Below, in pieces: positions 4,862 through 44,064 of a DNA stretch of 44,064 nt (positions are counted from its first letter, which is position 1; every line of letters starts with the position of its first letter). Both the position numbers and the translations under genes were made by a program. The stretch spans positions 1-44,064 of IMG/VR virus record IMGVR_UViG_3300046004_001078. One strand, 5' to 3'. The notes under the pieces are model-generated. The model was not told the DNA's origin, made no database searches, and saw nothing but the letters and a program-made list of their open reading frames with translations. This DNA comes from a virus.

Positions 4862-5583
4862 TGGCAGTATTTTCACTTAATGGTAACCAATCTTGCGAGA
4901 AGTGCTACGTATTTAGAATACGGGTATTAGGTTACACTAGTGGAAGTATAACAGTAGAAGTAGGCAATGGAGATTTTACAAGCATAGCAATCGTAGCAAC
5001 CATAACCGCAAACGGGAACTATGATATTGATATTAACTTTGACCCCTACGAATGCGCTACATTTAACGCCATAAGAATAACCCTATCAAGCCCTACAACT
5101 GCGGTTTACAGAGTTAAAGGTTTCTTTGTTGCCGATGCTTGTGCTGACAACTTTTGCTCTCGTTGTTTTGAGGTTACAGACAATGACGATTGCTTATTGG
5201 AATTGAGTTGGACTAATGGGCGCAACTTTGCCGACCTTGAATACAAACAACTTAACTACGTTCAAAAGGTATGGGTAAAAGGCGAAATAAACAACGCTAA
5301 CTACCCTATTGAAAACAGCGTCTTTAGGTTTGGCAATGGTGATACTATCCTAACCTACGCACGAAGGGTAAAAGCCATGCAATTAGCTTTAAAAGAATTG
5401 CCCGAATATATGCACAACGCTATTTCATTAGGGTTAATGCATGATGAATTTTACATTAACGGTGAACAATACCGTTTAGCTGCTGACGGCTACGAACCGA
5501 TATGGAGAAGGACTAGCAAACTTGCACCCGTAATAGTTGATGTGTTTAAGAAACAAGAAAACAGTAGAAACCAACTTTGCTAA
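4861..5583 (+). CDS. Hypothetical virion-region protein, cysteine-rich N-terminal half
   Basis: A 240-residue protein. The first 130 residues are beta-rich and hold many cysteines (C12, C15 near the start, and a CxxC in NFCSRCFEV). The C-terminal half is helical and charged. Family not recognised. It starts on the last base of the fibre gene's stop and ends directly before the first glycosyltransferase gene (TAA then ATG). Position suggests a fibre or baseplate component. Confidence 0.5.
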   Translation: MAVFSLNGNQSCEKCYVFRIRVLGYTSGSITVEVGNGDFTSIAIVATITANGNYDIDINFDPYECATFNAIRITLSSPTTAVYRVKGFFVADACADNFCSRCFEVTDNDDCLLELSWTNGRNFADLEYKQLNYVQKVWVKGEINNANYPIENSVFRFGNGDTILTYARRVKAMQLALKELPEYMHNAISLGLMHDEFYINGEQYRLAADGYEPIWRRTSKLAPVIVDVFKKQENSRNQLC

Positions 5584-7462: not shown

Positions 7463-8061
7463 TGAGAGAAGACAATTTAAACAAGCTAGGTTTTGAAGGC
7501 GACCCACACGTATTGCCTGTCATTGAAAAACTAGCTAAGAAAAACAAAGTAGGGGTAATTATTGAAACGGGTACTTTCTTTGGAAACACGACTGCTAAGT
7601 TTGCGGAGTTGGGTTTGCCAGTAGTAACTATTGAAAGCCAAAGCAAACAATTTGCCGCAGCCTACAAAAACCTAAAGGCTAAAGGCTACGATGTTGATAA
7701 ATATCAAGACGGTACTATTTGGATGGTTAATGCTCATTCACAAGATGTGTTAGGGCAAGTAATTGACAACACAGGACAGGACAGCATACTATTCTATCTT
7801 GATGCCCATTGGGAAAGTCACTTACCTTTATTAAACGAACTTGACCACATAGCCAAAAGCGGTGTAAAGGCGGTTATCGTTATCCATGACTTCCAAGTAC
7901 CCAACAAAGATTTTGGTTTTGATGTGTACGGTGGTCAACCTTTGAACTACGAATTTATCAAGGACAAGCTTGATGCAATCTACCCTAAAGGCTACAATTA
8001 TTTTTACAACAAAGTAGCGGAAGGGCATAAACGAGGGTTAATATTTATCGAGCCAAAATAA
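7462..8061 (+). CDS. SAM-dependent methyltransferase-like protein
   Basis: A 199-residue protein. VIIETGTFFGNTT (residues 32-44) matches the SAM-binding motif I of class I methyltransferases, VVTIES (55-60) the acidic end of strand 2, and FYLDAHW with VIVIHDF the later motifs of the small sugar-modifying branch. I chose the ATG at 7462 (TAATG overlap with the previous stop) rather than a TTG at 7438. As last gene of the transferase run it may methylate the sugar they add; that is inference. Confidence 0.65.
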   Translation: MREDNLNKLGFEGDPHVLPVIEKLAKKNKVGVIIETGTFFGNTTAKFAELGLPVVTIESQSKQFAAAYKNLKAKGYDVDKYQDGTIWMVNAHSQDVLGQVIDNTGQDSILFYLDAHWESHLPLLNELDHIAKSGVKAVIVIHDFQVPNKDFGFDVYGGQPLNYEFIKDKLDAIYPKGYNYFYNKVAEGHKRGLIFIEPK

Positions 8062-8062
8062 A

Positions 8063-8112
8063 TTTAGATTAGTCTAAAAAATTTGCTTGGTAATATTAAA
8101 ACATTATCTTTG
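8063..8112 (+). promoter_or_regulatory. Structural-gene promoter with palindrome
   Basis: Palindrome TTTAGA-TTAG-TCTAAA (8063-8078), -33 TTTG (8082-8085), the shared TTGGTAATATTAAAA, and -7 TATCTTTG (8105-8112), 19 bases after TTTG. It is the twin of the promoter at 2325-2375. By the spacing in leaderless genes here, transcription should start near 8117, exactly at the first hairpin of the leader RNA. Confidence 0.8.
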
Positions 8113-8115
8113 TAT

Positions 8116-8190
8116 GGTCGAAGGACTTTAATCTACGTGCCAATTTTACCCCACAGGCATAAATAAGTTGGGGTGTTAACTTTTAACACC
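8116..8190 (+). ncRNA. Structured leader RNA, copy 1 (shared with the major capsid gene)
   Basis: Helix P0: GGTC (8116-8119), loop GAAG, GACT (8124-8127). Helix P1: GTGCC (8137-8141) with GGCAT (8156-8160). The P1 loop holds ACCCCA (8148-8153), complementary to TGGGGT (8169-8174), a possible pseudoknot. Helix P3: GGTGTTAA (8172-8179), loop CTT, TTAACACC (8183-8190), ending 5 bases before the ATG. The pseudoknot and P3 share GG, so they may exclude each other. The second copy at 13564-13639 keeps all helices with different bases. No known RNA family is recognised. Confidence 0.75.
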
Positions 8191-8195
8191 TAATT

Positions 8196-8735
8196 ATGGC
8201 TTTTGATTATTGTAATGCCCCCCTTACCGACCACGAACTAATTGCTTGCGGTAACTGGAAAAAAGGCTCAATTAACGCAGTTGCTATCATTGAAGATACA
8301 ACCCTACTTACTGATTACGAAAGTATTTCCGATTGGAACGCTGCTATTGCTGCTGGCGATGTAAAAATTATCAAGCAAGTAAAAGGCGAACTACCAGAAC
8401 CTAGTGTTATTGAAGGTTCTAATCCTGTTGGTGGTGGTCGTGAGAATATCACAGACGGATATAACTACACTCTTGAAATTCAAGACTATAACGTATCAGC
8501 GGATAACGATACCTTTTACGAAAACCTTAACCCACGTATTGCGGCTATTGCCTACTTCATGCCTAAGACTGGCGAAATTGGTGTAGTATTGCAAGAGGTT
8601 ACGTTTAACGCCCGTCCTGTAGTTCCGATGTCAAGCACCGAAAAGCAACACTACTTGCTTACTTCCAATTGGGACGCGCCAGCTAACGAGTTTCCTTTGC
8701 GTTTTACCGCCCCTGCTGGAATCTTTACCGTGTGA
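8196..8735 (+). CDS. Probable major tail tube protein
   Basis: A 179-residue, mostly beta protein without catalytic motifs. It has its own palindrome promoter and the same structured leader as the major capsid gene, so it is probably made in bulk like the capsid. Length and composition suit a siphovirus tail tube subunit. It stands apart from the tape measure and chaperone genes, with glycosyltransferases on both sides. An alternative is a capsid decoration protein. It overlaps the next gene by GTGA. Confidence 0.5.
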   Translation: MAFDYCNAPLTDHELIACGNWKKGSINAVAIIEDTTLLTDYESISDWNAAIAAGDVKIIKQVKGELPEPSVIEGSNPVGGGRENITDGYNYTLEIQDYNVSADNDTFYENLNPRIAAIAYFMPKTGEIGVVLQEVTFNARPVVPMSSTEKQHYLLTSNWDAPANEFPLRFTAPAGIFTV

Positions 8736-11507: not shown

Positions 11508-11545
11508 CCCCTACTGGCGTTATGCGTTAGTGGGGGTTTTTATTA
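11508..11545 (+). terminator. Intrinsic terminator between portal and MuF-like gene
   Basis: CCCCTACT (11508-11515) pairs with AGTGGGGG (11529-11536) with one G-U pair, and TTTTTA follows at once. It sits inside the virion operon, 8 bases before the next ATG, with no evident promoter behind it. It probably acts as an attenuator that lowers expression of the genes after the portal, or is read through. Confidence 0.75.
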
Positions 11546-13543: not shown

Positions 13544-13563
13544 GCCGAAGGGCTAATACTAAG

Positions 13564-13639
13564 TGCCGAGGGGCAATAAACCTACGTGCCATTTTCTTAC
13601 TAGGGCATTACAATTAAGTAGGGATTAACTTTTAATCTC
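13564..13639 (+). ncRNA. Structured leader RNA, copy 2 (major capsid gene)
   Basis: Helix P0: TGCC (13564-13567), loop GAGG, GGCA (13572-13575). Helix P1: GTGCC (13586-13590) with GGCAT (13604-13608). Loop CTTACT (13596-13601) can pair with AGTAGG (13617-13622), with one G-U. Helix P3: GGGATTAA (13621-13628), loop CTT, TTAATCTC (13632-13639), ending 7 bases before the ATG. Compared with copy 1 (8116-8190), P0, pseudoknot and P3 keep pairing while the bases change; CTACGTGCC and TTAACTTTTAA are identical. No clear promoter is seen just upstream, so it may lie inside a longer transcript. Confidence 0.75.
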
Positions 13640-13646
13640 TATAAAA

Positions 13647-14687
13647 ATGAGTTACGAATCTAGTGCTTATGTAAGCTGTCCAGCGATACAGGCACGTCTA
13701 AATGAAATCTTTAACAATGCGGATTTGACGCAAAGGCGTTACATTCCCCCATTCCTAAGTGCGATAATCTCGCCACTTAACACGCAAGGCGTAACACTTC
13801 AACAACGTATTGGCGGCAATGGTCGCAAGCGTGAAGTTCAAGCGGTGTACAGCCCACGACTATGTACTAACAGCGTAAGTTCAAGCCGTTTGGATGCTTG
13901 TACTGGTGGCGACAAAGTTGGCGAACTATCGCAGACTTACGAAGTTGACCCCGATGCAGGTTCATTTATTACCAAGAACTTGGAACTACGTGACCTTATT
14001 GACGTTTGCGAAACTGATAGCTTTTATGTGGCTAACACAATTAACAAAATGATTGATGCGGTTGTACGTGTGATGGGTACTACCACACTAGCTGAAGCTG
14101 CTGTGTTGTTTGGTGTTCATGCTGATACTGGCAGCGATGCAGCGGTAACGGTAAGCACACAAATTGGCAACAATGTAAGCGATGACATCATTACTAAGTT
14201 GTCTTACCTTTTGAAAATTAGCGAGTACTCAAACAACGAGGCTTGGGTAGTTGGTGGTTCATTTGACTTTAACCGCTACTATTCAGCAGTTGGCTTGTCT
14301 TGTTGCACCGATGCTCTAAACTTTGACTTGGCAGCTTACAATGGTCAATATGGCCCTATGCCATTGTTTGACAAAGGCGTTGATACTGCTTGGGGTGACA
14401 ACCACGTTGGTTTGTTGTTGCCTAATGCTTTGCAGTTGATTACTTACAACGAGTACGTAGGTGAGCGTGGTGTACGTGTTATCGACACCGAAACGTACAA
14501 ACAAGGCACAATAGTTGACCCTGCTACTGGCATTATGTTCGACTATTCGGCTAAGTTTGATTGCGGCACTTGGACATTTTCTTTGGGTCTTGCTCACCAA
14601 TTGGTTGCAGCACCTTCTGATATGTTCTATGCTTGTGATGAACTACGTGGAACGAATGGCTTTTGGGATTTTGTTATTGCTAACTAA
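13647..14687 (+). CDS. Major capsid protein
   Basis: A 346-residue protein following the scaffold gene and preceded by the structured leader. Size and order suit an HK97-fold coat protein, though the fold cannot be proven by eye. It has an N-terminal helix-rich arm (AIQARLNEIFNNADLT) and a long mixed alpha/beta body. Several cysteines (C9, and CCTD near residue 216) could form cross-links. No delta-domain or protease site is evident, in line with a separate scaffold. Confidence 0.8.
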   Translation: MSYESSAYVSCPAIQARLNEIFNNADLTQRRYIPPFLSAIISPLNTQGVTLQQRIGGNGRKREVQAVYSPRLCTNSVSSSRLDACTGGDKVGELSQTYEVDPDAGSFITKNLELRDLIDVCETDSFYVANTINKMIDAVVRVMGTTTLAEAAVLFGVHADTGSDAAVTVSTQIGNNVSDDIITKLSYLLKISEYSNNEAWVVGGSFDFNRYYSAVGLSCCTDALNFDLAAYNGQYGPMPLFDKGVDTAWGDNHVGLLLPNALQLITYNEYVGERGVRVIDTETYKQGTIVDPATGIMFDYSAKFDCGTWTFSLGLAHQLVAAPSDMFYACDELRGTNGFWDFVIAN

Positions 14688-14689
14688 GC

Positions 14690-15703
14690 ATGACTTGTCT
14701 TGATAATCTGATTGGAGTTAGTCCACTATTGGGAGATGTTCCCGATAGTGGGCTATTCCTGTCCGATATAGACATAACGCTTCAACAAGCTAACAACCTA
14801 CAAACTACCAACGATACAAGCGGAGTTGATTACTTGCAAAAGAAAATTGAGTTTGCGCAAAAAACGGTAGTAAATGACTTTGTTAACCGTTTGAGGGAAA
14901 GTAAGCCAAACCTAAAAGCGTTTGGGGTTAACACTATTCTCGAAAGCAATACCGTAGGTAAGTACCGCCAAAATAAACCCGTGTTAAACGCTAATGCAGC
15001 GATTGAGCGTGGTTTGTATTTAGACATTAACGATGCCACCTATTTAAGTTTAAAAGTCACTAGCATATCGCTAATGGCACAAACAACGGGCAACGTAACG
15101 GTAAAGGTGTACGACTTAATACAAGCCAAGCAAATAGATAGTATTGTTGTCGCTTGTGTAGCTGGCGAAATAAGCACGGTAAGCGTAAACAAGTCTTATG
15201 ACAACAACGGGCAAAGGTATCAATTAGCATTCTTGTATGATGGTGCGGTTGCAAGTTACATCAATGACTATAATACTTCAAAGTGTTTAGGTTGCACCCC
15301 AAGTTGGAACGTAGGCAATTGTCAATGGAGTGGCGCAACTATCGCAGATGGGGCAACTCGAATACGCTCTAGTTTATCAACGGGTGGCTCAAACGGGGCT
15401 AACGGTCTATCAATTACCTATACAGTTGATTGCGATGTTAATAGCCTTGTTTGTCAATTAAAGTCTAGGTTAGCGTTCCCTTTGTTGTACAAGACAGCGG
15501 TATTGGTTGCGGATAGCTACAAATTGACACCACGCATAAACGCTACGGTAAAGATACCTAACGTTCCTATTGAGGATTGGAGAACTTGGGCGGTTGGTGA
15601 ATACGAGAAAGTAATGGATAACATTATACAAGGCATTCAACTACCAAATACAGCTTGTTTTAGGTGTATTCCAAGAGTTAACCAAGTAGTTGTATTGCCA
15701 TGA
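14690..15703 (+). CDS. Hypothetical head/neck structural protein
   Basis: A 337-residue protein starting 2 bases after the capsid stop and overlapping the next gene by ATGA. The N-terminal 70 residues are helical, the middle is beta-rich, and a cysteine-rich loop (CLGCTPSWNVGNC) sits near residue 198. Position after the capsid gene suggests a head completion or head-tail connector role. I do not recognise the family. Confidence 0.5.
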   Translation: MTCLDNLIGVSPLLGDVPDSGLFLSDIDITLQQANNLQTTNDTSGVDYLQKKIEFAQKTVVNDFVNRLRESKPNLKAFGVNTILESNTVGKYRQNKPVLNANAAIERGLYLDINDATYLSLKVTSISLMAQTTGNVTVKVYDLIQAKQIDSIVVACVAGEISTVSVNKSYDNNGQRYQLAFLYDGAVASYINDYNTSKCLGCTPSWNVGNCQWSGATIADGATRIRSSLSTGGSNGANGLSITYTVDCDVNSLVCQLKSRLAFPLLYKTAVLVADSYKLTPRINATVKIPNVPIEDWRTWAVGEYEKVMDNIIQGIQLPNTACFRCIPRVNQVVVLP

Positions 15704-22016: not shown

Positions 22017-22050
22017 GCCCGACGGAGTGGTTACCGTCGGGCTTTTTATT
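22017..22050 (+). terminator. Strong intrinsic terminator ending the lysis operon
   Basis: GCCCGACGG (22017-22025) pairs perfectly with CCGTCGGGC (22034-22042) and is followed by TTTTTATTT. It closes the virion and lysis transcription units before the early region. Confidence 0.92.
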
Positions 22051-29352: not shown

Positions 29353-29663
29353 AACAAAGCCCACAAATAGCTATCTATTGTTTATATCTGCAATCTAAAG
29401 GCATAGCCTACGAACTGGAATACAAGTTCCACAATACACGAAAATGGAGAGCAGATATAGCAATACCTAGCTTAAACGTGCTTATCGAATATGAAGGCAT
29501 ATCAAGTCGGAAAAGCCGACACACCACTTTAACAGGCTTTACTAACGATTGCGAGAAGTACAACCAAGCGCAAATAGTAGGCTGGATAGTCTTACGCTAC
29601 ACGGTAATTAACAAGGCGCAATTTTATCAAGACATTGACTTATTGAGTAGCTGCAAAAAATAA
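29349..29663 (+). CDS. Small PD-(D/E)xK-type nuclease, VSR/DUF559-like
   Basis: A 104-residue protein starting with TTG inside the previous stop (TTGA), with no better ATG. WRADIAIPSLNVLIEYEG (D36, E47/E49), then H58, D67 and K70, and GWIVLRYT is the core of VSR/DUF559-like endonucleases. Coupling to the methyltransferase suggests it acts on the same DNA, for instance mismatch or branched DNA, or host DNA lacking the methyl mark. That is inference. Confidence 0.65.
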   Translation: MKQSPQIAIYCLYLQSKGIAYELEYKFHNTRKWRADIAIPSLNVLIEYEGISSRKSRHTTLTGFTNDCEKYNQAQIVGWIVLRYTVINKAQFYQDIDLLSSCKK

Positions 29664-29681: not shown

Positions 29682-29716
29682 TTTGCGTAATAATTCAAAT
29701 AATAAGGCTATCTTTG
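29682..29716 (+). promoter_or_regulatory. Duplicated early promoter, copy 2
   Basis: TTTG (29682-29685), the repeated GTAATAATTCAAATAATA (29687-29704) and TATCTTTG (29709-29716). Matches the element at 25853-25888, including ACTATTTTTA on the 5' side. The next ATG is at 29746. Confidence 0.7.
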
Positions 29717-29745: not shown

Positions 29746-29922
29746 ATGAAAGTAGTTATCACAAATCAAGAATTATTTAACGGAACTGACGTAGAATTGA
29801 ACCTTACCCAATCGTTTAATGGAACTCTTAGAGGAGATGTTACAATTAACGGCATTACCCATACAGGTGAACATGGTAAATATTCTTATGAAGATGAATT
29901 TGGTTTTGTTATTGAAGATTAA
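29746..29922 (+). CDS. Small hypothetical protein
   Basis: A 58-residue beta-rich protein (VELNLTQSFNGTLRGDVTIN, then GEHGKYSYEDEFGFVIED). I use the ATG at 29746 because an upstream ATG at 29683 precedes the promoter's -7 box. Family not recognised. Confidence 0.55.
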   Translation: MKVVITNQELFNGTDVELNLTQSFNGTLRGDVTINGITHTGEHGKYSYEDEFGFVIED

Positions 29923-31650: not shown

Positions 31651-31670
31651 CTGAATAACCCGTATATTAG
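31639..31670 (+). promoter_or_regulatory. Promoter of the structured leader
   Basis: TTTG (31639-31642), 20 bases, TATATTAG (31663-31670), which differs by one base from TAnnTTTG. Transcription should start near 31675-31677, just before the first hairpin of the leader. Confidence 0.6.
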
Positions 31671-31676
31671 CGGAAC

Positions 31677-31797
31677 GATATTAAACTAATACTATTGGCT
31701 CGGAAACAATAGCGTTAGATTCAAAAATTAACTTATAGCCCTTTTGTTGCCGTAGCCTATTCCGAGTAGGTGAAAGCGCAAAGGGGCTTTTTATTTT
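31677..31797 (+). ncRNA. Structured leader with complementary hairpin loops and a terminator-like stem
   Basis: Hairpin 1: CTATTG (31692-31697), loop GCTCGGAAA, CAATAG (31707-31712). Outer stem: AGCCCTTTTG (31737-31746) with CAAAGGGGCT (31779-31788), one G-U, then TTTTATTTT and the ATG. Inside it hairpin 2: GCCTA (31755-31759), loop TTCCGAG (31760-31766), TAGGT (31767-31771). CTCGGAA of loop 1 is a perfect complement of loop 2, allowing a 7-bp kissing contact. The stem and T-run look like a terminator or start-blocking element. No known riboswitch is recognised. Confidence 0.72.
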
Positions 31798-32331: not shown

Positions 32332-33068
32332 GTAAATCACCAGCATTTCAATTATATGCAGCCGACTTCTATATGGGTACGGACGAAATGACAGCAGCTC
32401 AAGTTGGTGGTTATATCCGTTTGCTTTGTAAGCAATGGGACAAAAATTACCTTCCTTTTGATAAAAAAGTACTAAAAAAGTGGACAGAATTAAGCAACAA
32501 AGATTTGAATATTGTGCTGGAAAAGTTTGTAAAAAATGAACACGGGTACATAAATGAACGCTTAGAGCAAGAACGACAAAAGCAAGAGCAATACAGGCTT
32601 TCACGAAGCGAAGCAGGTAAGATTGGCAACCAAAAGCGATGGAAGGATGTATCGCATAGCGATGGTAAAAGTATCGCAGACGACTCGCAAAACCATCGCT
32701 CTTCATCTTCATCTTCATCTTCATCTTCATCTTCTAATTCCATAAAAGAAAAAGAAATAGATAAAGAAAAAATCGAAGCGCAATTTCCCGACAACTTTAC
32801 AGACGACCATAAAAAACTTTGGTTTCAATATGAGCAAGTACGGGAGTCAATACCTAAACCACCTTATTCACCAGCAACAAGACAATTAGCCATAAACGAA
32901 TTTGTTGCTAGTGCTAGTTGCGACCCTAAAAAATATACCGAAGGATTAAAGGCAAGTATTCAAGGTGCATGGGTTAGCCCGAAATGGTTTGCACCCAAAC
33001 AAAACAAGTACACACCCGAACCACAAACAACGTCAGTATCAGCACCTAAAAAGATAAAATATGAATGA
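32328..33068 (+). CDS. DUF1376 replication-associated protein with polyserine linker
   Basis: A 246-residue protein. Residues 1-95 form DUF1376 (FQLYAADFYMGTDEMTAAQVGGYIRLLCKQW), residues 125-136 are twelve serines, and the C-terminal part is helical with PYSPATRQLAINEF. Similar proteins precede dnaB in many phages and are thought to be initiators or helicase loaders. It overlaps dnaB by 8 bases, which supports a loader role. Confidence 0.78.
   Translation: MSKSPAFQLYAADFYMGTDEMTAAQVGGYIRLLCKQWDKNYLPFDKKVLKKWTELSNKDLNIVLEKFVKNEHGYINERLEQERQKQEQYRLSRSEAGKIGNQKRWKDVSHSDGKSIADDSQNHRSSSSSSSSSSSSNSIKEKEIDKEKIEAQFPDNFTDDHKKLWFQYEQVRESIPKPPYSPATRQLAINEFVASASCDPKKYTEGLKASIQGAWVSPKWFAPKQNKYTPEPQTTSVSAPKKIKYE
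32701..32734 (+). repeat. Hexanucleotide tandem repeat (CTTCAT)
   Basis: About 5.7 copies of CTTCAT encode the serine run of the DUF1376 protein. Since the unit is six bases, gain or loss changes linker length without shifting the frame. Confidence 0.9.
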
Positions 33069-34455
33069 GTACGGCAAAATACCACCACAGGCAGTTGACC
33101 TTGAAGGTATTGTTTTAGGAACTATATTATTAGACCGTGAAGCCATGCTAAAAGCCATTGGTATAATTACAATGGACACGTTTTATAAAAACGGGCACGG
33201 GGCTATTTTTAATGCCATGCAAACGCTGTTTAATGACAACGAGCCAATAGATACCATGACGGTATTTAATAGGCTTAAAACACAAGGTAGAATAGACGAA
33301 GCTGGCGGTTTAATGTACATAGTCAAATTAACTGATGGTGTGTCAAGTACCGCACATATTGAAAGCCATTGCAGAATACTTCAGCAAAAATTTATCCAAA
33401 GGGAAATAATACGCATTAGTGCGGAGTCAATGAAAAACGCATACAACGATGAGATAGATGTATTTCAGCTACTAGAGGGTGTTTACAGCGATATAATGAA
33501 AATATCCAACACGCTAACGGGCAAAACAAGTTCAATGCTTTATGATGTATCTCAAAAACTAGCCACTAAAATACTAGAGTTAGCGGATAGTACGGACGAA
33601 TTAACGGGTGTACCTTGTGGCATAACTGACTTGGATAGGTTTACGGGCGGTTGGCAAAGCCCTGATTTAGTGATAGTGGCAGCACGGCCAGGAATGGGTA
33701 AAACTGCTTTTAGTTTAGCAGTTGCTAAAGGTGCTGCACAATTTGGTAGGGCAGTTGCATTCTTTAGCCTTGAAATGTCAGAGGAACAATTAGCAGGGCG
33801 GTTGATTAGCGATGAGTTAAACATTAACAGCGATAGAATAAGAACCCCAACAAGACTAGATAGCACGGATAAGAATGCGCTAATAAACGAGTTGCACAGA
33901 TTAAATATACCAATTTACATTGACGACACGGCAGGATTAAGTATAACGCAATTACGAGCCAAAACCACAGCACTAAAGAAAAAACACAATATTGAAATGA
34001 TAATAGTTGATTACCTTCAGCTAATGACAGGCATAAGCAACGGGGGCAATAGGGACACTATAATAGGCGAAATAACGAGGGGGTTAAAACTAGTTGCCAA
34101 AGAACTAAAGATACCAGTAATAGCCCTATCACAGCTTAGTAGAAAGGTTGAGGAACGAGCCGACAAACGCCCTATGTTATCTGACCTAAGAGAAAGCGGA
34201 AACATAGAACAAGATGCGGATGCGGTAATATTTTTATACCGCCCCGAATACTACAATGTAGAAAGTTATGAGGACGGGCGAAGCACTAAAAATGTATGTG
34301 AGATAATATTTGGCAAGCATAGAAACGGTGGATTAGGAACGATTGAGCAAGGGTTTGACGGTGCTCACAGTCGGTTCTATTCACTAGATACCTTTGAGCC
34401 TAGACCACTAAGCAAGATTAACAGACCGAATGAAGATGACTTTAACGTGTTCTAA
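33061..34455 (+). CDS. dnaB: Replicative DNA helicase, DnaB family
   Basis: A 464-residue DnaB helicase. Residues 8-115 are the N-terminal helical domain (PPQAVDLEGIVLGTILLD). The RecA-like domain carries Walker A ARPGMGKT (208-215), FFSLEMS, Walker B IIVDYLQLM (about 319-327), SQLSRKVEERADKRP and the DLRESGNIEQDAD block. It unwinds the phage replication fork as a hexamer. The upstream DUF1376 gene is likely its loader. No primase domain is fused and none is recognised elsewhere, so host primase may be used. Confidence 0.95.
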   Translation: MNEYGKIPPQAVDLEGIVLGTILLDREAMLKAIGIITMDTFYKNGHGAIFNAMQTLFNDNEPIDTMTVFNRLKTQGRIDEAGGLMYIVKLTDGVSSTAHIESHCRILQQKFIQREIIRISAESMKNAYNDEIDVFQLLEGVYSDIMKISNTLTGKTSSMLYDVSQKLATKILELADSTDELTGVPCGITDLDRFTGGWQSPDLVIVAARPGMGKTAFSLAVAKGAAQFGRAVAFFSLEMSEEQLAGRLISDELNINSDRIRTPTRLDSTDKNALINELHRLNIPIYIDDTAGLSITQLRAKTTALKKKHNIEMIIVDYLQLMTGISNGGNRDTIIGEITRGLKLVAKELKIPVIALSQLSRKVEERADKRPMLSDLRESGNIEQDADAVIFLYRPEYYNVESYEDGRSTKNVCEIIFGKHRNGGLGTIEQGFDGAHSRFYSLDTFEPRPLSKINRPNEDDFNVF

Positions 34456-34493
34456 AAAAAGATTGCAAAAGCGTAAAAATAATTACTTAATAA

Positions 34494-34526
34494 TTTGCGT
34501 AATTAAAAAAAGTAATTGTATATTTG
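34494..34526 (+). promoter_or_regulatory. Promoter of the structured RNA region behind dnaB
   Basis: TTTG (34494-34497) in TTTGCGTAAT, 21 bases, TATATTTG (34519-34526). The TTTGCGTAAT box is shared with the promoter at 29682. No start codon with a good ORF follows for 200 bases, so the first product seems to be RNA. Confidence 0.78.
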
Positions 34527-34541
34527 GAGGGTAGTAATTAA

Positions 34542-34695
34542 GTGAAAGTTCTTTGATAATACAGGGGGTAATGGTTAAGAATAAAGCCATTAATTAACTA
34601 AGGTTATTTTTTTTCGTTACTTAGGTATTTAATGTTCCAGCCCTAGCTTATGGTGCTTAAAGAAAGCAGCCATTACCCCCTTATAATACTTTTAC
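34542..34695 (+). ncRNA. Structured non-coding RNA behind dnaB
   Basis: A 12-bp perfect stem AGGGGGTAATGG (34563-34574) with CCATTACCCCCT (34670-34681) closes a region of 95 bases. An outer stem GTGAAAGT (34542-34549) with ACTTTTAC (34688-34695), one G-U, extends it. Inside are weaker hairpins: CTAAG (34598-34602) with CTTAG (34620-34624) and GCTT/AAGC near 34654-34667. It begins about 10-15 bases after a strong promoter. It could be a leader of the gene at 34736, a free small RNA, or part of a replication origin. Confidence 0.6.
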
Positions 34696-34698
34696 CGC

Positions 34699-34719
34699 CC
34701 GTGGGCGTGTTGCTCACGG
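34699..34719 (+). repeat. Repeated 21-base hairpin, copy 1
   Basis: CCGTGGGC, loop GTGTT, GCTCACGG: an 8-bp stem with one G-U pair. The identical 21 bases recur at 35050-35070, so the pair flanks the gene at 34736-35047. This copy is 16 bases before that gene's ATG and is not followed by a T-run. Confidence 0.88.
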
Positions 34720-34735
34720 ATTTAAAATCAATACA

Positions 34736-35047
34736 ATGGCTAACTATTTTCAGACAGACGATAGGGACGATTATTTTGCTCAATTTGAAAGCAAACCTCG
34801 CATTAAGAAACCCAAACCAAAGGGCTGGGCAAAGTCAAGACGAGAGGAAAAATTTGCCAAGCGTGTTGAGTTAGCCGATAAGATTAAAAAAGTATTGCCA
34901 TTGTACAACGGCATTGATAGGGAAAAGCTAGAGCAGATTGCGACAGAGTTAACGACCCAAAAAAACGTAGCAATTCCTGTGGGAATTACTTGGAAGTGCG
35001 CTGAAACAAAAAGTATTTTGGAGCGCATACATCAATACACATTTTGA
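34736..35047 (+). CDS. Small basic hypothetical protein between hairpin repeats
   Basis: A 103-residue basic protein (RIKKPKPKGWAKSRREEKFAKR, then a helical region and AIPVGITWKCAETKSILERIHQY). Basic N-terminal half suggests nucleic-acid binding. It is enclosed by identical hairpins and large structured RNAs. Family not recognised. An ORF at 34650-34874 in another frame is probably spurious. Confidence 0.55.
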   Translation: MANYFQTDDRDDYFAQFESKPRIKKPKPKGWAKSRREEKFAKRVELADKIKKVLPLYNGIDREKLEQIATELTTQKNVAIPVGITWKCAETKSILERIHQYTF

Positions 35048-35049
35048 AA

Positions 35050-35070
35050 CCGTGGGCGTGTTGCTCACGG
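35050..35070 (+). repeat. Repeated 21-base hairpin, copy 2
   Basis: Identical to 34699-34719, and located two bases after the stop of the enclosed gene. TTTTTT follows 5 bases later (about 35076-35081), so this copy might also end transcription, though the T-run is not adjacent to the stem. Confidence 0.88.
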
Positions 35071-35082
35071 GTAAATTTTTTA

Positions 35083-35137
35083 AACAGTTGCCCACTACTC
35101 ACAATTTGTGCAAAGGCTGTTAGGGTAGTGGGCAGCT
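35083..35137 (+). ncRNA. Structured leader element (long stem or pseudoknot)
   Basis: AGTTGCCCACTAC (35086-35098) pairs with GTAGTGGGCAGCT (35125-35137) over 13 bp with one G-U. AACAG (35083-35087) can alternatively pair with CTGTT (35117-35121), which gives an interleaved pseudoknot order with the core stem. A small CACA/TGTG hairpin lies inside. It ends 13 bases before the ATG at 35151, so it probably regulates that gene. Confidence 0.6.
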
Positions 35138-35150
35138 AAAAAACAAGATT

Positions 35151-35537
35151 ATGAAACCAATTAGAGAATACCTACAACAATTACCATCACCGTACAACAC
35201 ACTTGCTTTAAGTGTAGTTGACGAAAAATACGAAAGCTACCAAGCGGAAGTTGAAAATTTACATCAAGCTATTAGCTGTATGTGTAATTGGGAAAAAATA
35301 CCACAACTATCGGATTTTTGGAATAAAGTATATGATTGGTGTATTGACCCTAATAAACACCAACTACCCCCTATACCAGCGGTAGAAGTTTCCCCCGAAG
35401 TTGAGCAACCTAACAAATTAAATGAACTATTTACCATTATAGAGCAAGTACGCAAAGGGTTAATTGACTTAGAGCAAGAAAACACCCAACTAAGAGCGCA
35501 ACTAGCCGAACTATTAAGTAATCCTAAAGAGTTGTAA
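35151..35537 (+). CDS. Hypothetical protein with C-terminal coiled coil
   Basis: A 128-residue protein. N-terminal helices (IREYLQQLPSPYNTLAL), a cysteine pair (SCMCNW), a proline-rich linker and a C-terminal heptad region (GLIDLEQENTQLRAQLAELL). It follows the structured leader. Family not recognised. Confidence 0.55.
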   Translation: MKPIREYLQQLPSPYNTLALSVVDEKYESYQAEVENLHQAISCMCNWEKIPQLSDFWNKVYDWCIDPNKHQLPPIPAVEVSPEVEQPNKLNELFTIIEQVRKGLIDLEQENTQLRAQLAELLSNPKEL

Positions 35538-36423: not shown

Positions 36424-36636
36424 ATGCGTAAACCAAGTGAACAAATAAAGCTAGTAAAGGAAATTTGCAATAAAGTATCTAACGGGGCTAGCATAAGGGC
36501 AGTATTGGCACAAAGCCATAAATACCCTAGCTTTAGTACTTGGTGCGAATGGCTGAATGACAACCAAGAATTAGCGAACCTTTACGCTTGTAGTAGAGAA
36601 ATAAGACATAACCTTGTAGTGTATGGCAGTAGGTAG
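36424..36636 (+). CDS. Truncated paralogue of the terminase small subunit DNA-binding domain
   Basis: A 70-residue protein that aligns with the first 65 residues of the next gene: PSE, then EIC--V--G-SIR--L-QS-KYPS--T---W, then N-EL---Y---RE-R. It contains the helix-turn-helix region only and lacks the C-terminal oligomerisation part. It overlaps its paralogue by 14 bases. It could compete for the packaging site or regulate the operon. Confidence 0.65.
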   Translation: MRKPSEQIKLVKEICNKVSNGASIRAVLAQSHKYPSFSTWCEWLNDNQELANLYACSREIRHNLVVYGSR

Positions 36637-37045
36637 ACCAAGTGAATACAACTTTGAGTTATGTGCCGAAATATGCGAGCACGTTGCAGATGGTTTATCT
36701 ATTCGCAAAGCCTTAAAGCAATCAGACAAATACCCATCTTGGGCTACTTTTCGTAAGTGGAAGTTTGAAAACCCCGAATTACTAACACAATACACGCGCG
36801 CGCGAGAAGACAGAGCCGACACCAAAGACGATAAGATAGACGATATACTAGAGCAGTTAATGACAGGCGAAATAGACCCACAAACGGCAAAGGTATTGAT
36901 AGATACACTTAAATGGCAAATGGGTAAGGAGAATAAGAACGTGTACGGAGATAGCAGCAAGGTTGACGTTACTAGTGGGGGTGATAAGATACAAGACAGG
37001 GTAGTACGGATAGAGGTAGTACCGATGGATAGCCCAAAAGAATAG
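36623..37045 (+). CDS. terS: Terminase small subunit
   Basis: A 140-residue protein with N-terminal helix-turn-helix (GLSIRKALKQSDKYPSWATFRKW), a helical middle (KIDDILEQLMTGEIDPQTAKVLIDTLKWQMGK) and a flexible end, as in small terminase subunits that recognise phage DNA for packaging. Located one HNH gene before the large subunit. An unusual run CGCGCGCG sits near 36797-36804. Confidence 0.82.
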   Translation: MAVGRPSEYNFELCAEICEHVADGLSIRKALKQSDKYPSWATFRKWKFENPELLTQYTRAREDRADTKDDKIDDILEQLMTGEIDPQTAKVLIDTLKWQMGKENKNVYGDSSKVDVTSGGDKIQDRVVRIEVVPMDSPKE

Positions 37046-37841: not shown

Positions 37842-37985
37842 ATGACCGACAAGATAGAATATGCCACAGAAGATGAAATAGATGCAGCTATTGACAATTG
37901 CTACCCAACACCACTAGCAAAAATAAGCGCAAGCCTACACTACGACCTTTATGGGTATTTCCCGTTTAATGCCCAACAGAATTGA
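37842..37985 (+). CDS. Small protein coupled to the large terminase
   Basis: A 47-residue ORF (starting MTDKIEYATEDEIDAAIDN) whose TGA overlaps the TTG start of the large terminase. TATCTTAG at 37824-37831 is a possible -7 box. The ORF may be an N-terminal portion split from the terminase or a translational coupler. Confidence 0.5.
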   Translation: MTDKIEYATEDEIDAAIDNCYPTPLAKISASLHYDLYGYFPFNAQQN

Positions 37986-39262
37986 AGATAAACGAAACAT
38001 ACCTACCCTACCTATACGACACCACTCCTTACTTGGTATTTAAGGGAACGGCTGGCAGCGGCAAAAGCGTGTTTTGTGCTCAAAAGATAGTGATTAGAAC
38101 CATATCCGAGCAAGGGCATAGGTTTTTGTGTTTGCGTAAAGTAGGTAGAACCGTACAAGATAGTATTTGGAAGGAAATACTAAGCGCAATAAATGAAAGC
38201 GGTTTCAGTAGTGAGTTTAACCTAAACAAAACTACCCACACCATACTACACATACCCACAGGCAATGAAATAATTTGCATGGGTTTGGATGACAGCGAAA
38301 AGATTAAGTCTATCCACAAACCAACAGGGGTATGGTTAGAGGAAGCCACCGAGTTTACAGTTGACGACTTCAACCAAATAGATACCCGTGTACGGGGTGG
38401 GTTAAACCACTACAAACAAATGCTATTGAGTTTTAACCCTACTGACCACCGTAGTTGGATAAAGTCTTATTTCTTTGATGGAGAGTGGGCAAAAACAACC
38501 GAAATAGATGGAGAGTTAATAACCATTGACCGTAAGATAATTGAAACAAGCTGGCGCAATAACCCATTTTTAAGCATTGAGGATATTGCTAAAATTAAGA
38601 TTAAGGGCGCATCTTCACCAAACTTTCATAGGGTATATTTTTTGGGTGAGTGGGGTACACCAGAAGTATCTAATCCATTTCTTTATATGTGGAAAGATAG
38701 CTTTATAGACGACACAATAGAAGTCAACCCCAAACTAACATTATACGTTAGCTTTGACTTTAACGTAAGCCCTGCAACCGCAACCGTCCATCAGTTTGGG
38801 CATGATTTTTACTACACACTAGATGAATTTAGACTAATAAGCGCAAAGGACAGGCAAGTAGAAGAAAGCTATACAGAGGAGTTATGTAAATACATCAAGA
38901 CAAAGTACGGGGGTATGCACATAAGAGTAACAGGCGATGCAACCGCCATGAGCCGTAAAGCCAATAGTAGGTTAACGGACTTCCAAATAATCCAAAACGT
39001 ATTGAACCCTGCAAAGATGGATTTCCTACGTAAGAACCCAAGCCATGCAGAAAGCAGCGCACTAAGCAACGCCATATTTTCAAGACACCCGAATAGGAAG
39101 GTACACCCCCGTTGTGAATACTTGATAGAGGACTTTAGAACGATAGAATATGCGGACAGTTCAATAGTCAAGCCAAAGGATAGAATGGTGGGTCACTTGC
39201 TTGATACACAACGCTACATGGATAACACCTACTTTGGTAACTACTTGCAAAGTTTACGTTAA
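37982..39262 (+). CDS. terL: Terminase large subunit
   Basis: A 426-residue packaging motor of the PBSX/terminase_3 type. ATPase: Walker A GTAGSGKS (residues 22-29), Walker B VWLEEATE (117-124), coupling motif SFNPT (150-154). Nuclease: D259 (SFDFN), D319 (TGDATA) and D408 (HLLDTQRYMD) as metal ligands. It starts with TTG overlapping the previous stop. It pumps DNA through the portal and cuts the concatemer. Confidence 0.94.
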   Translation: MKINETYLPYLYDTTPYLVFKGTAGSGKSVFCAQKIVIRTISEQGHRFLCLRKVGRTVQDSIWKEILSAINESGFSSEFNLNKTTHTILHIPTGNEIICMGLDDSEKIKSIHKPTGVWLEEATEFTVDDFNQIDTRVRGGLNHYKQMLLSFNPTDHRSWIKSYFFDGEWAKTTEIDGELITIDRKIIETSWRNNPFLSIEDIAKIKIKGASSPNFHRVYFLGEWGTPEVSNPFLYMWKDSFIDDTIEVNPKLTLYVSFDFNVSPATATVHQFGHDFYYTLDEFRLISAKDRQVEESYTEELCKYIKTKYGGMHIRVTGDATAMSRKANSRLTDFQIIQNVLNPAKMDFLRKNPSHAESSALSNAIFSRHPNRKVHPRCEYLIEDFRTIEYADSSIVKPKDRMVGHLLDTQRYMDNTYFGNYLQSLR

Positions 39263-40959: not shown

Positions 40960-43528
40960 GGCGTTTGTTAAAACCGTACAGCAGGGTGAAAAGAAAGTAG
41001 TGGAAGGTGCAGTTACCACAAGCAAAACCATTACGGCAGAGGAAGAAAAAGCACATAGTAAGCGCAAAGCCATTAGAGCGCAAGAAGAACAACAATTAAC
41101 CGAAATCCAAAAGAAACGAAAGAAAGCATATTCACCCGATGAAATAGTACAATACAACAAAACAATAGAAGAAACTAGCAAGCGTGTAAAAGCGGTAACA
41201 TCTGAAACGCAAAATCTTGAAAAGGGCAACGGCAACCTAATTACAAGTTTTAGAAGTATTGCAGGTGCGGTGGGTATTGCTTTTGGTATTCAAGAATTAT
41301 TAGCGTTTGGTAAAGAACTTGTGCAATTAGGATATAAATCACAAGGCGTAACAAAAGCCTTTAATGCTATTGCAAGTTCGCAGGATTTGGGGGCATTAAG
41401 AGCATCAACAGGATTTGCGGTAAGTGACCTGCAACTAAAGCAGTTAGCGGTTAAGGCAAACACTTTTAAAATATCACTTGAAACATTACCTACCTTATTA
41501 AAGTTTGCTACAATTAGGGCATCGGAAACAGGACAAGAAGTTGATTATTTGGTTGACTCAATTATTACTGGCATTGGTAGACAATCACCATTGATATTGG
41601 ATAACTTAGGTATTTCGGCTATTGAGTTACAACAAGAATTTAGGGCAACAGGAGATTTTGCATTAGCAGCGGCAAATATTATTGACCGTGAATTGGCTAA
41701 CTCAGTCACAAGTATAGACGATGCAACTAACGCAATGCAAAGGTTAAACGCAAAGTTTGAAAACTTTAAGGAAACCGCTGGCAATGCACTTGTTAAGCAG
41801 CTAGATGAAATAAGCACTATATTTGGCAGTAACATTTCATTGATTGATAAATACGGGGCTTCGCTTAATTATTTGGGGCAAGCAGTACCTTCATTGGCGT
41901 TCCTGCAATTTATAGGGGACAATGAAAAGCTATATAAGTCAATATTAGAAACAGAAGCGGCACTAGCAAAGTACAATCAAGAAATACAAAACACTTTAAC
42001 CGTAACGGGCGACACCGAAACAAAAATACAGCAGTTAGTTCAGATATTGACTATGCTGGATAAGTTGGTAGCGTCTAATGCGGAAGCTTTTGGATTTGCA
42101 GCGTTAGCCGTTCAACACTACGAAAAGCAATTAAATGAGTTGCAAAACCAAGCCCCCGTAGAAGTTACCGAAACGCTAAAATCTTTAAATGAAGAATTAT
42201 CTTTGTTAAAAGACCAATTTGAAAACACCGATATTAATAGCCCGTTATTTAGAACTTTACAAGCGGAAATTAAAGACCTTGAAGCAAGGATAGAAAGCAT
42301 TACCAACCCAACCAATAAAGGCAGTATTGCGTACTTTGAAGCGCAACTAGCCAAACTAGAGGAACGCTTAAAGAACGCCACAGGCATTGAAAAGATAAAA
42401 GACCTAGAGCATGAAATTTACTTACTAGGTGTTAGGATTGCATCAATGAAAAACCTTGACACGGTATTAGGTTCGGAAATAATAGACAACAGCGTACCAA
42501 CTGACATTGATGCAGCCAACGCAGCAGCCATAAGGTTAATTGAAAGTTTGCAGCTACTTAACGATGTTCAGTTAAACGAACTTAACAAAGAACTTGACAA
42601 GACTAGCAAAGAGTTAACTGACTTAGCTACCCAAGTTACAGATGACTTATGGGATGAGTTTAAAGCTGGCATAGACAGCGCACGGCAAAAGCAAGAAGAG
42701 TTTAACTCTATACTAACGAGTAGCGTAACTACCTTAGTAGGGGACTTAACAGGCTTATTTAGTGCTATTGGAGCGCAACAAGATGAAGCAATTAACCGCC
42801 AACTAGAAGGTGAAAAAACAAGAGCACAAGAGCACTACGATATTATGCGTGGCATTTGGCAAGCGCAACTCGAAAACGGGCAAATAACAAAAGAGGAATT
42901 ATTTAATCAAGAAACTGCATACAACGAAAAGATTAACGCACTTGAAGCAAGGCAAGCGGAAGTAAGACGCCAGCAGTTAAGGAAACAAGCCATTGCGGAA
43001 AAAGCAAACGCTTCGTTTCAGTTGATTATTGGTACTACAACAGCCGTAGCAAAGAACTTAGCGAACCCCCCTGCTATTATTGCTATCTTAGCATTGGCAG
43101 CGGCACAACTAGCGGTAATTGCAGCTACACCGATACCAGAATTTGCAAAGGGTGTGGTAGGTTTGCAAGGTGCTGGAACGGAAACAAGCGATAGCATACA
43201 CGCCAAACTATCCAAAGGTGAAAGCGTAATAACCGCCAAAGCAACACGGGCTAACAAAGATGCGTTAACCGCAATGAACAATGGAGAGTACGAGAAGTTC
43301 GTAACGCAAAAATACATTATGCCAGCGTTGGAAGTAAGACGGGAAAAGCAACGTAATAGCTTTGCCGAAAACATATCAAGGTCAATGCAATCCAGTACTT
43401 ATGACGACAGCCTGTTAATACACGAAACACGTAAAAACAAAGCTGTTAGCATTAGGAATGCAGACCAAATAGGCAAAGCCACCGCACGGGAAATGAATAA
43501 ACAAAGCTACTTTAAAAACAGGGTATGA
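40895..43528 (+). CDS. Tail tape measure protein
   Basis: An 877-residue, helix-rich protein with coiled coils (residues 35-110, 410-510, 660-700), a hydrophobic region near 118-138 (SFRSIAGAVGIAFGIQELLAF) and a second near 705-745 (AIIAILALAAAQLAVIAATPIPEFAKG). AKLSKGESVITAKATRANKDAL at the end is typical of tape measures. It sets tail length and may form the channel in the host membrane. By the usual 1.5 angstrom per residue rule the tail would be near 130 nm; this is only an estimate. Confidence 0.9.
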   Translation: MALEQVTVEYNLALEKAKAQFEAFVKTVQQGEKKVVEGAVTTSKTITAEEEKAHSKRKAIRAQEEQQLTEIQKKRKKAYSPDEIVQYNKTIEETSKRVKAVTSETQNLEKGNGNLITSFRSIAGAVGIAFGIQELLAFGKELVQLGYKSQGVTKAFNAIASSQDLGALRASTGFAVSDLQLKQLAVKANTFKISLETLPTLLKFATIRASETGQEVDYLVDSIITGIGRQSPLILDNLGISAIELQQEFRATGDFALAAANIIDRELANSVTSIDDATNAMQRLNAKFENFKETAGNALVKQLDEISTIFGSNISLIDKYGASLNYLGQAVPSLAFLQFIGDNEKLYKSILETEAALAKYNQEIQNTLTVTGDTETKIQQLVQILTMLDKLVASNAEAFGFAALAVQHYEKQLNELQNQAPVEVTETLKSLNEELSLLKDQFENTDINSPLFRTLQAEIKDLEARIESITNPTNKGSIAYFEAQLAKLEERLKNATGIEKIKDLEHEIYLLGVRIASMKNLDTVLGSEIIDNSVPTDIDAANAAAIRLIESLQLLNDVQLNELNKELDKTSKELTDLATQVTDDLWDEFKAGIDSARQKQEEFNSILTSSVTTLVGDLTGLFSAIGAQQDEAINRQLEGEKTRAQEHYDIMRGIWQAQLENGQITKEELFNQETAYNEKINALEARQAEVRRQQLRKQAIAEKANASFQLIIGTTTAVAKNLANPPAIIAILALAAAQLAVIAATPIPEFAKGVVGLQGAGTETSDSIHAKLSKGESVITAKATRANKDALTAMNNGEYEKFVTQKYIMPALEVRREKQRNSFAENISRSMQSSTYDDSLLIHETRKNKAVSIRNADQIGKATAREMNKQSYFKNRV

Positions 43529-43728
43529 ACTGGATAAAGAAAAAGTTTCACCAATGGTTTATGTGTAAGCACAATTGGCAGGCAATAGGTAAAGAAAGAC
43601 TATGCCATTACGATGACTTTATGTTTGTTTTTCAAAAACATAAATGTTTAAATTGTGGACTAACTAAAGATAGGCACATGACTCAATCGGAATGGAACAA
43701 GGAATGTAATAAAAGATTTGGGCTATAA
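43525..43728 (+). CDS. Small zinc-site protein behind tape measure
   Basis: A 67-residue basic protein: WFMCKHNW, then LCHYDD, then KHKCLNCGLTKDRH. C14, H16, C53 and C56 could hold zinc. It overlaps the tape measure stop by ATGA. Short proteins of this type are often found at this place in Bacteroidetes phages; function unknown. Confidence 0.6.
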   Translation: MNWIKKKFHQWFMCKHNWQAIGKERLCHYDDFMFVFQKHKCLNCGLTKDRHMTQSEWNKECNKRFGL

Positions 43729-43732
43729 AATT

Positions 43733-44064
43733 ATGCCAGCAATAGAATTTTTGATACCAGTAGATGTATACGCCTGCAAGGTTAGGGTAGTTGTTACTGA
43801 CGACAGAGAAAAGACATACAAAAAGCACAATTTAACACCTAGAAATGGGTTAGCCGTTTGCTATTTTAAGCAAAGCCCAAATGAAGAATTATGTTTAATT
43901 TTGTTTGATAATGATAAAATTGAGCCTAACCATATTGTACATGAGTGTATTCATGCAGCCGTACATATTTTAGATTGTGTTGATGTAAAGTTGGATGCAA
44001 ATAATGACGAGCCATTAACCTATTTAGCTACTTATTTATTTAGTAAAATAATGGATAAGACTTT
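43733..44064 (+). CDS. HExxH metallopeptidase-like protein, N-terminal part (continues at 1-152)
   Basis: This is the first 110 residues of a 118-residue protein that crosses the contig junction. HIVHECIHAAVHIL (H70, E71, H74) is an HExxH zinc motif, and NDEPLTYLATYL further on may give the third ligand, as in small phage proteins with HE--H and E-AYL--YL. The catalytic role is unproven. It lies between the tape measure and tail-tip genes, so it may process or be part of the tail tip. Start ATG at 43733, 4 bases after the previous stop. Confidence 0.75.
   Translation, partial: MPAIEFLIPVDVYACKVRVVVTDDREKTYKKHNLTPRNGLAVCYFKQSPNEELCLILFDNDKIEPNHIVHECIHAAVHILDCVDVKLDANNDEPLTYLATYLFSKIMDKT
43938..44064. 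repeat. Terminal direct repeat (second copy)
   Basis: Exact copy of bases 1-127; see that entry. For any count of genome length or genes this copy should be dropped. Confidence 0.93.

Follow-up and report, generated by a model that had tools for sequence, protein, structure and literature searches.

A candidate moron-like unit with a structured leader behind dnaB in a probable phage of Bacteroidota

Results

The window analysed here is IMG/VR record IMGVR_UViG_3300046004_001078 at its full length of 44,064 bases. Its first and last 127 bases (1-127 and 43938-44064) are identical, forming a 127-bp terminal direct repeat, and so the genome is probably complete and either circular or circularly permuted. 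In the relatives L119 and L121, sequence like that at 43524 gives way within 4 bases to sequence like that at 149, and this near-continuity suggests that the phage carries additional DNA at its end junction (43525-44064 plus 1-148) compared with both. Every larger gene that was examined is on the + strand, and 7.4% of the sequence is non-coding. The locus of interest begins where a gene for a DnaB-type helicase ends, near a DUF1376/primosomal-like gene, and consists of a non-coding gap followed by a gene for a basic protein of 103 aa (Table 1). Downstream come several small genes, then a pair of small-terminase-like ORFs and terL, which places the unit between the replication module and the packaging module. 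The two adjoining Sf6-like ORFs look like a small terminase that has been duplicated or split. The DnaB protein is 39.4% identical to that of a Cellulophaga phage, and this similarity, together with promoters of the Bacteroidota type, suggests that the host probably belongs to Bacteroidota.

Table 1. Features of the locus and of related leaders, in window coordinates except where another contig is named.
Feature	Position	Strand	Basis or remark
Pseudoknot leader, copies	8108-8198 and 13555-13649; L096 4909-5003; L121 11653-11745		before ORFs 8196 and 13647
dnaB, DnaB-type helicase gene	33061-34455	+	profile matches
Non-coding gap	34456-34735		280 bases, from dnaB end 34455 to ATG 34736
Promoter, Bacteroidota sigma-A type	34494-34526	+	-33 TTTG 34494-34497, 21-base spacer, -7 TATATTTG 34519-34526
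Proposed 5' leader of the 103-aa ORF mRNA, ~205 nt	34531-34735	+	no convincing ORF, promoter upstream, no terminator tail before ATG
Two-tier stem	34542-34695	+	outer 8-pair and inner 12-pair tiers; predicted by folding of one sequence
Inner stem	AGGGGGTAATGG 34563-34574 with CCATTACCCCCT 34670-34681	+	12 Watson-Crick pairs, extra G-U inside
Internal helix, interrupted	34588-34602/34620-34634	+	loop contains T8
Hairpin CCGTGGGCGTGTTGCTCACGG, 8 pairs	34699-34719	+	16 bases 5' of ATG; tail ATTTAAAATC
103-aa basic protein gene, proposed cargo	34736-35047	+	start supported by L003 match
Second 21-nt hairpin copy, exact	35050-35070	+	2 bases after stop; then GTAAATTTTTT, terminator-like
Strong hairpin, leader of next gene	35086-35137	+	13 bases 5' of ORF 35151 (128 aa)
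Small-terminase-like ORFs, Sf6-like family	36424-36636 and 36623-37045		adjacent ORFs, both match
terL	37982-39262

The initial annotation had described a gap without a convincing gene, placed just behind dnaB and opening with a TTTG-N21-TATATTTG promoter, and each of these descriptions holds. The ORFs of at least 20 aa that touch the gap are just 34, 35, 36 and 74 aa long, on which ground I rejected it as coding DNA, and pattern scans locate the promoter where it had been placed. The promoter is an exact match to the sigma-ABfr consensus, a -7 element TAHHTTTG with TTTG about 20 bases upstream; TAHHTTTG with a TTTG at -33 is the form given for Bacteroides and Flavobacterium (PMC6847099, PMC7366714). 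Transcription would start near 34531 if the G-5 numbering used in PMC6847099 is followed, and the mRNA would then have a leader of 205 nt. Across both strands of the window TTTG-N19-22-TANNTTTG has five matches where 1.97 are expected, and three of the four two-element matches on the + strand begin in intergenic gaps (8082, 12430 and 34494). The -7 element by itself is enriched in non-coding DNA, which holds or touches 7 of the 24 occurrences of TAHHTTTG on the + strand. Another promoter-like pair at 29683-29716 (TTTG, 23 bases, TATCTTTG) stands about 30 bases 5' of an in-frame ATG at 29746 and has TTTGCGTAAT in common with the promoter at 34494.

The 103-aa ORF and its ATG are real: phage L003 has a protein with the same 13 N-terminal residues, and the codon differences are mainly silent. 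Identity amounts to 80% over the first 20 residues (34736-34795; L003 3001-3060), with eight silent codon differences and four residue-changing ones in this stretch, and the two proteins diverge beyond it. The pair thus presents a conserved N-terminal segment joined to variable bodies, in phages that are otherwise different. The protein has no match in Pfam, PHROGs or NCBIfam, and its AlphaFold model was poor (mean pLDDT 63.8) and was left out of the analysis. Upstream of the ATG, positions -3, -6 and -12 are all A, and A at these positions is listed as a positive determinant in PMC6847099.

The gene is bracketed by one hairpin, CCGTGGGCGTGTTGCTCACGG, which is found exactly twice in the window, before the ATG and just after the stop codon. 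The two copies differ in what follows them. The copy at 35050-35070 looks like a terminator, and a scan for T-tailed hairpins returned it as 35048-35072 with a later T-run, next to sites at 11508-11536 and 22017-22042 that both carry TTTTTATT; a hairpin near 31786, before 31798, is also T-tailed (TTTTTATTTT). The copy at 34699-34719 appears in neither of two terminator scans, and its tail is not terminator-like. Since it has no TTTTTATT tail, transcription from the promoter should run on into the 103-aa ORF, and since the second copy is terminator-like, promoter, leader, gene and terminator would form one unit. The next gene, ORF 35151, repeats this plan with a strong stem that ends 13 bases 5' of its ATG, and the stretch 35045-35155 folds with a z of -4.90.

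As for the structure of the leader, the initial annotation had reported a perfect 12-bp stem enclosing a 95-base interior, extended by an outer 8-bp stem. All 12 inner pairs are present; the outer stem likewise has its eight pairs (34542-34549/34688-34695), one of which is a G-U pair. In the ensemble computed for the leader alone, pair probabilities are 0.83-1.0 in the inner stem and 0.96-0.99 in the outer one, and the 16 bases 5' of the ATG are unpaired. Against shuffled sequences the folding energy has a z of -3.67 for 34542-34719, of -2.63 for 34530-34735 and of -3.18 with 30 shuffles. The fold is thus present in the model and moderately unusual, not overwhelmingly so, and the fold itself may or may not matter for function.

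It is unlikely that the fold is mostly incidental, a chance 12-bp repeat within the promoter region and spacer ahead of a small gene, where only the promoter and hairpins would matter. Apart from the inner stem the 44,064 bases contain no perfect 12-mer inverted repeat with a loop up to 200, but 1.16 are expected by chance under a first-order Markov model; when 5000 sequences were drawn from such a model of the gap, 99 of them contained a perfect 12-bp repeat with a loop of up to 150. Among same-size windows tiled over both strands of the phage, 16 of 988 have a lower z and 4 of 988 a lower energy, and a coding stretch, 29353-29560, reaches a z of -4.72, beyond that of the leader. However, the repeat is GC-rich (a run of five G against five C) within an AT-rich gap, it lies directly behind the promoter and is lengthened by the outer stem, and 280 non-coding bases are costly where so little of the DNA is non-coding. 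The strongest folding signal of the tiled scan lies elsewhere, at 14597-14863 (z -5.6 and -4.8), where ORF 13647 ends and the next ORF starts. An alternative pairing of the 5' arm with a nearby AGCCATTA (direct repeat D6) shows as a transient hairpin in growing-chain folds; I dropped it as a candidate, an 8-pair partner being expected by chance about 0.3 times by hand reckoning.

The same features could be read as a free small RNA some 190 nt long, with its 5' end near 34531 and its 3' end at the hairpin 34699-34719, perhaps 6S-like in outline and acting on functions of the host or the phage. It would have its own promoter and a single long hairpin (z -3.67), and a further hairpin would close its 3' end. 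6S RNA folds into one long irregular hairpin with a side bubble, about 180 nt in length, and the long interrupted hairpin of the leader resembles this outline. A 6S RNA has been validated in Bacteroides thetaiotaomicron (PMC7366714), and the 6S-flavo family is Rfam RF01685 (PMC2864571). Nevertheless, the leader matches neither 6S nor any other Rfam family: the whole sequence has no Rfam match at the gathering score, which led me to reject a known RNA family, and at E values up to 5 the stretch 34400-35200 has no match to 6S or a bacterial sRNA family, only three unrelated weak matches on the opposite strand. Furthermore, the intrinsic terminator expected of an intergenic sRNA is absent at 34699-34719, where the 3' hairpin has no T-tail, unlike the other terminator-like sites of the phage, and so a free RNA would need processing; a homologue is also absent from 50 virus records. 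I therefore regard a free RNA as unlikely. A literature search found no publication on a phage-encoded 6S RNA in Bacteroidetes; leaders like the present one may nevertheless have been described in print. A tRNA or tmRNA was rejected too, ARAGORN finding 0 genes in the 44,064 bases.

That the locus forms part of a replication origin downstream of dnaB, in which the inverted repeat would work at the DNA level, is highly improbable, and I rejected it. The DnaB-type helicase and DUF1376/primosomal-like genes do adjoin, and the AT-rich flank contains a 12-bp inverted repeat, but the promoter accounts for the AT-richness. The cumulative GC skew, a minimum of which the initial annotation had proposed as a check, climbs almost steadily from 1 to 44 kb, through nearly the whole sequence, and has neither minimum nor reversal at the region. 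All 12 direct-repeat families in 34400-35200 have two copies, with no family of at least three and no iterons.

The two hairpin copies suggest one further model. The 21-nt hairpin is self-complementary, so its two copies are able to pair with each other, and in the predicted fold of an mRNA running from 34532 past the gene they do so (probability 1.0) and do not form local hairpins. Eight of the nine bases of the landing site 34720-34728 are able to pair with 35041-35049 around the stop codon, although this flank complementarity alone was equalled in 395 of 10,000 shuffles. In the energy model the long-range form is some 6 to 10 kcal/mol better than two local hairpins, and the landing site is predicted to be open until the transcript passes about 35058 and closed afterwards. 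The hairpins might then act as a translation timer, with the mRNA open only during its own synthesis and then closed by pairing of the copies, so that each mRNA would be translated mainly while being made. This would resemble in outline the maturation gene of MS2, which is reportedly controlled by delayed folding. I consider the timer very unlikely, because energy models are unreliable over 300 bases and these calculations ignore ribosomes.

Alignment of leader homologues comes down to one distinct sequence. The leader RNA had no blastn match in phage records and plasmids. In IMG/VR, DnaB as a single query found no relative, the 103-aa protein found L003 alone, matching over 20 residues, the hairpin core as an exact pattern hit eight stretches, none with a leader-like context, and a degenerate stem pattern hit eleven, all judged unrelated by eye. 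With the 346-aa putative capsid protein as query the match was L096, 97% identical on a 26-kb contig, and TerL found L119, with an 82% identical TerL on a contig that begins about 1.5 kb before its terL; neither of these near relatives (L096/G001 and L119) has dnaB and its surroundings on its contig. L119 stops short of dnaB and has nothing similar in the roughly 1 kb before its small-terminase match, and thus the stretch before the small terminase appears to be variable between relatives. No GTDB genome was found with the 103-aa protein or with a TerL alignment as query.

An alignment search with DnaB gave 80 loci, at no more than 48% identity. A covariance model built from the phage sequence alone found nothing credible in these loci and L003, L096 and L119 (best E 3.1). 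A scan of 50 complete records, which represent 47 of the 80 loci plus the same three, brought up nothing credible either (best E 0.17). Inside the phage it also matched 35007-35070, which contains the second hairpin copy (E 2.5e-5). A survey of dnaB-downstream gaps covered 45 of the 80 loci, L016-L060: 11 of the 45 have at least 190 bases before the next ORF, and two (L038 and L045) have a promoter match within the gap. A gap behind dnaB is thus no special feature of this phage.

Some of the loci deserve remark in their own right. The phage-collection DnaB matches L012, L013 and L014 (MT837557, MT835658 and MT837181), filed as 'Bacteriophage sp.', entered the DnaB alignment only; they look like bacterial chromosome around dnaB, with an ORF near dnaB in L014 that I take to be IspE-like, which raises the possibility of contamination in the phage collection. 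IMG/VR contig L020 has an Rfam permuted tmRNA match above the gathering score at 1330-1600 (-), and contig L022 matches the DUF805b cis-regulatory RNA family at 5453-5485 (+).

Discussion

The initial annotation had offered three readings of the gap, a free small RNA, a regulatory leader and part of the origin. The leader of the downstream gene is the best supported, a free RNA is possible, and the origin finds no support in skew or repeats. What lies here is most likely the fairly ordinary but real promoter and leader of a small accessory gene. The fuller proposal, to which I give about even chances, is a self-contained moron-like unit composed of a promoter, a structured 5' leader of about 205 nt, the 103-aa gene and a terminator-like hairpin. 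Host-type RNA polymerase would initiate near 34531, ahead of leader and gene, and the leader would pack upon itself into one long two-tier stem and one hairpin. The 16-nt A-rich unpaired stretch ATTTAAAATCAATACA would stay 5' of the ATG of the small basic protein, and the transcript would probably end at the second hairpin copy 3' of the stop codon, at 35050-35080. The fold would most likely shield the 5' end and leave the ribosome landing site accessible in hosts that, like the Bacteroidota, translate without Shine-Dalgarno pairing. Against the leader reading, however, folds as good or better exist in coding DNA, and against a simple open landing site, the fold of the whole mRNA pairs most of that site and the local hairpin is not its best state.

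Phage morons are self-contained promoter-gene-terminator units. The present locus resembles them in having its own promoter, a small accessory gene, a terminator-like hairpin (35050-35070 plus GTAAATTTTTT) and an apparently variable site between modules, with promoter and terminator assigned here by consensus matches only. It differs in that a structured leader of about 205 nt lies outside the definition of a moron, and in its base composition, which is unremarkable and does not set the region apart from the genome.

Long leaders do have precedent. The initial annotation held that the gap has more structure than a leader needs, which is a weak argument, since 5' UTRs of more than 100 nt are found on 13.5% of the mRNAs of Bacteroides thetaiotaomicron (PMC7366714). 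Those UTRs and the present leader share the sigma-ABfr promoter consensus as well as the length above 100 nt, but the former belong to host genes and are mapped by dRNA-seq in that account, whereas here the gene is a phage gene and the start is predicted only. Structured RNA 5' of a phage start codon is also seen in the leader pseudoknot of T4 gene 32 and the operator hairpin of gene 43, each of which is described as controlling translation of its phage gene (PMC3014915). In these T4 cases the gene product binds the RNA (PMC3014915), whereas 34542-34719 has no established pseudoknot or known binding partner.

If the unit is transcribed, it would provide a defined promoter and a structured leader in a phage whose probable host phylum has been little studied, and a starting point for asking how translation is controlled without Shine-Dalgarno pairing in such phages. 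With one hairpin repeated on either side of a gene, co-transcriptional control could be tested in a simple model. As a single sequence without conservation, the unit carries small general weight.

The phage has other structured leaders, and the pseudoknot leader that precedes ORFs 8196 (179 aa) and 13647 (346 aa) is a better-supported RNA than the leader in the dnaB gap. ORF 13647 is a probable capsid gene, by gene order and position only, and its product has no match in Pfam, PHROGs or NCBIfam. Each is a copy of the same element, made up of a small hairpin, a pseudoknotted stem and, 5' of the ATG, another hairpin. The 13647 leader differs from that of L096 by nine substitutions in 95 bases. 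Six of these make up three double changes, one in each of three helices, and every double change preserves a base pair; the remaining three substitutions fall at unpaired positions. The shuffle control for compensatory change is weak (54 of 500, with two sequences only), and structures slid along the sequence reach at most 55% pairing. A two-sequence model, R2, recovers the 8196 leader (E 4.4e-4) and the L121 counterpart (E 1e-4), and among the 50 records it matches in G001 alone. Neither the whole sequence nor 8050-8210 yields an Rfam match for this leader, and its nearest precedent in the literature consulted is the T4 gene 32 leader as described in PMC3014915.

Finally, a further structured leader at 31655-31797 precedes ORF 31798, likewise with no credible Rfam match. 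The loop of its first hairpin, CTCGGAA, is complementary to TTCCGAG in the second, and it ends in a terminator-like hairpin followed by TTTTTATTTT immediately 5' of the ATG.
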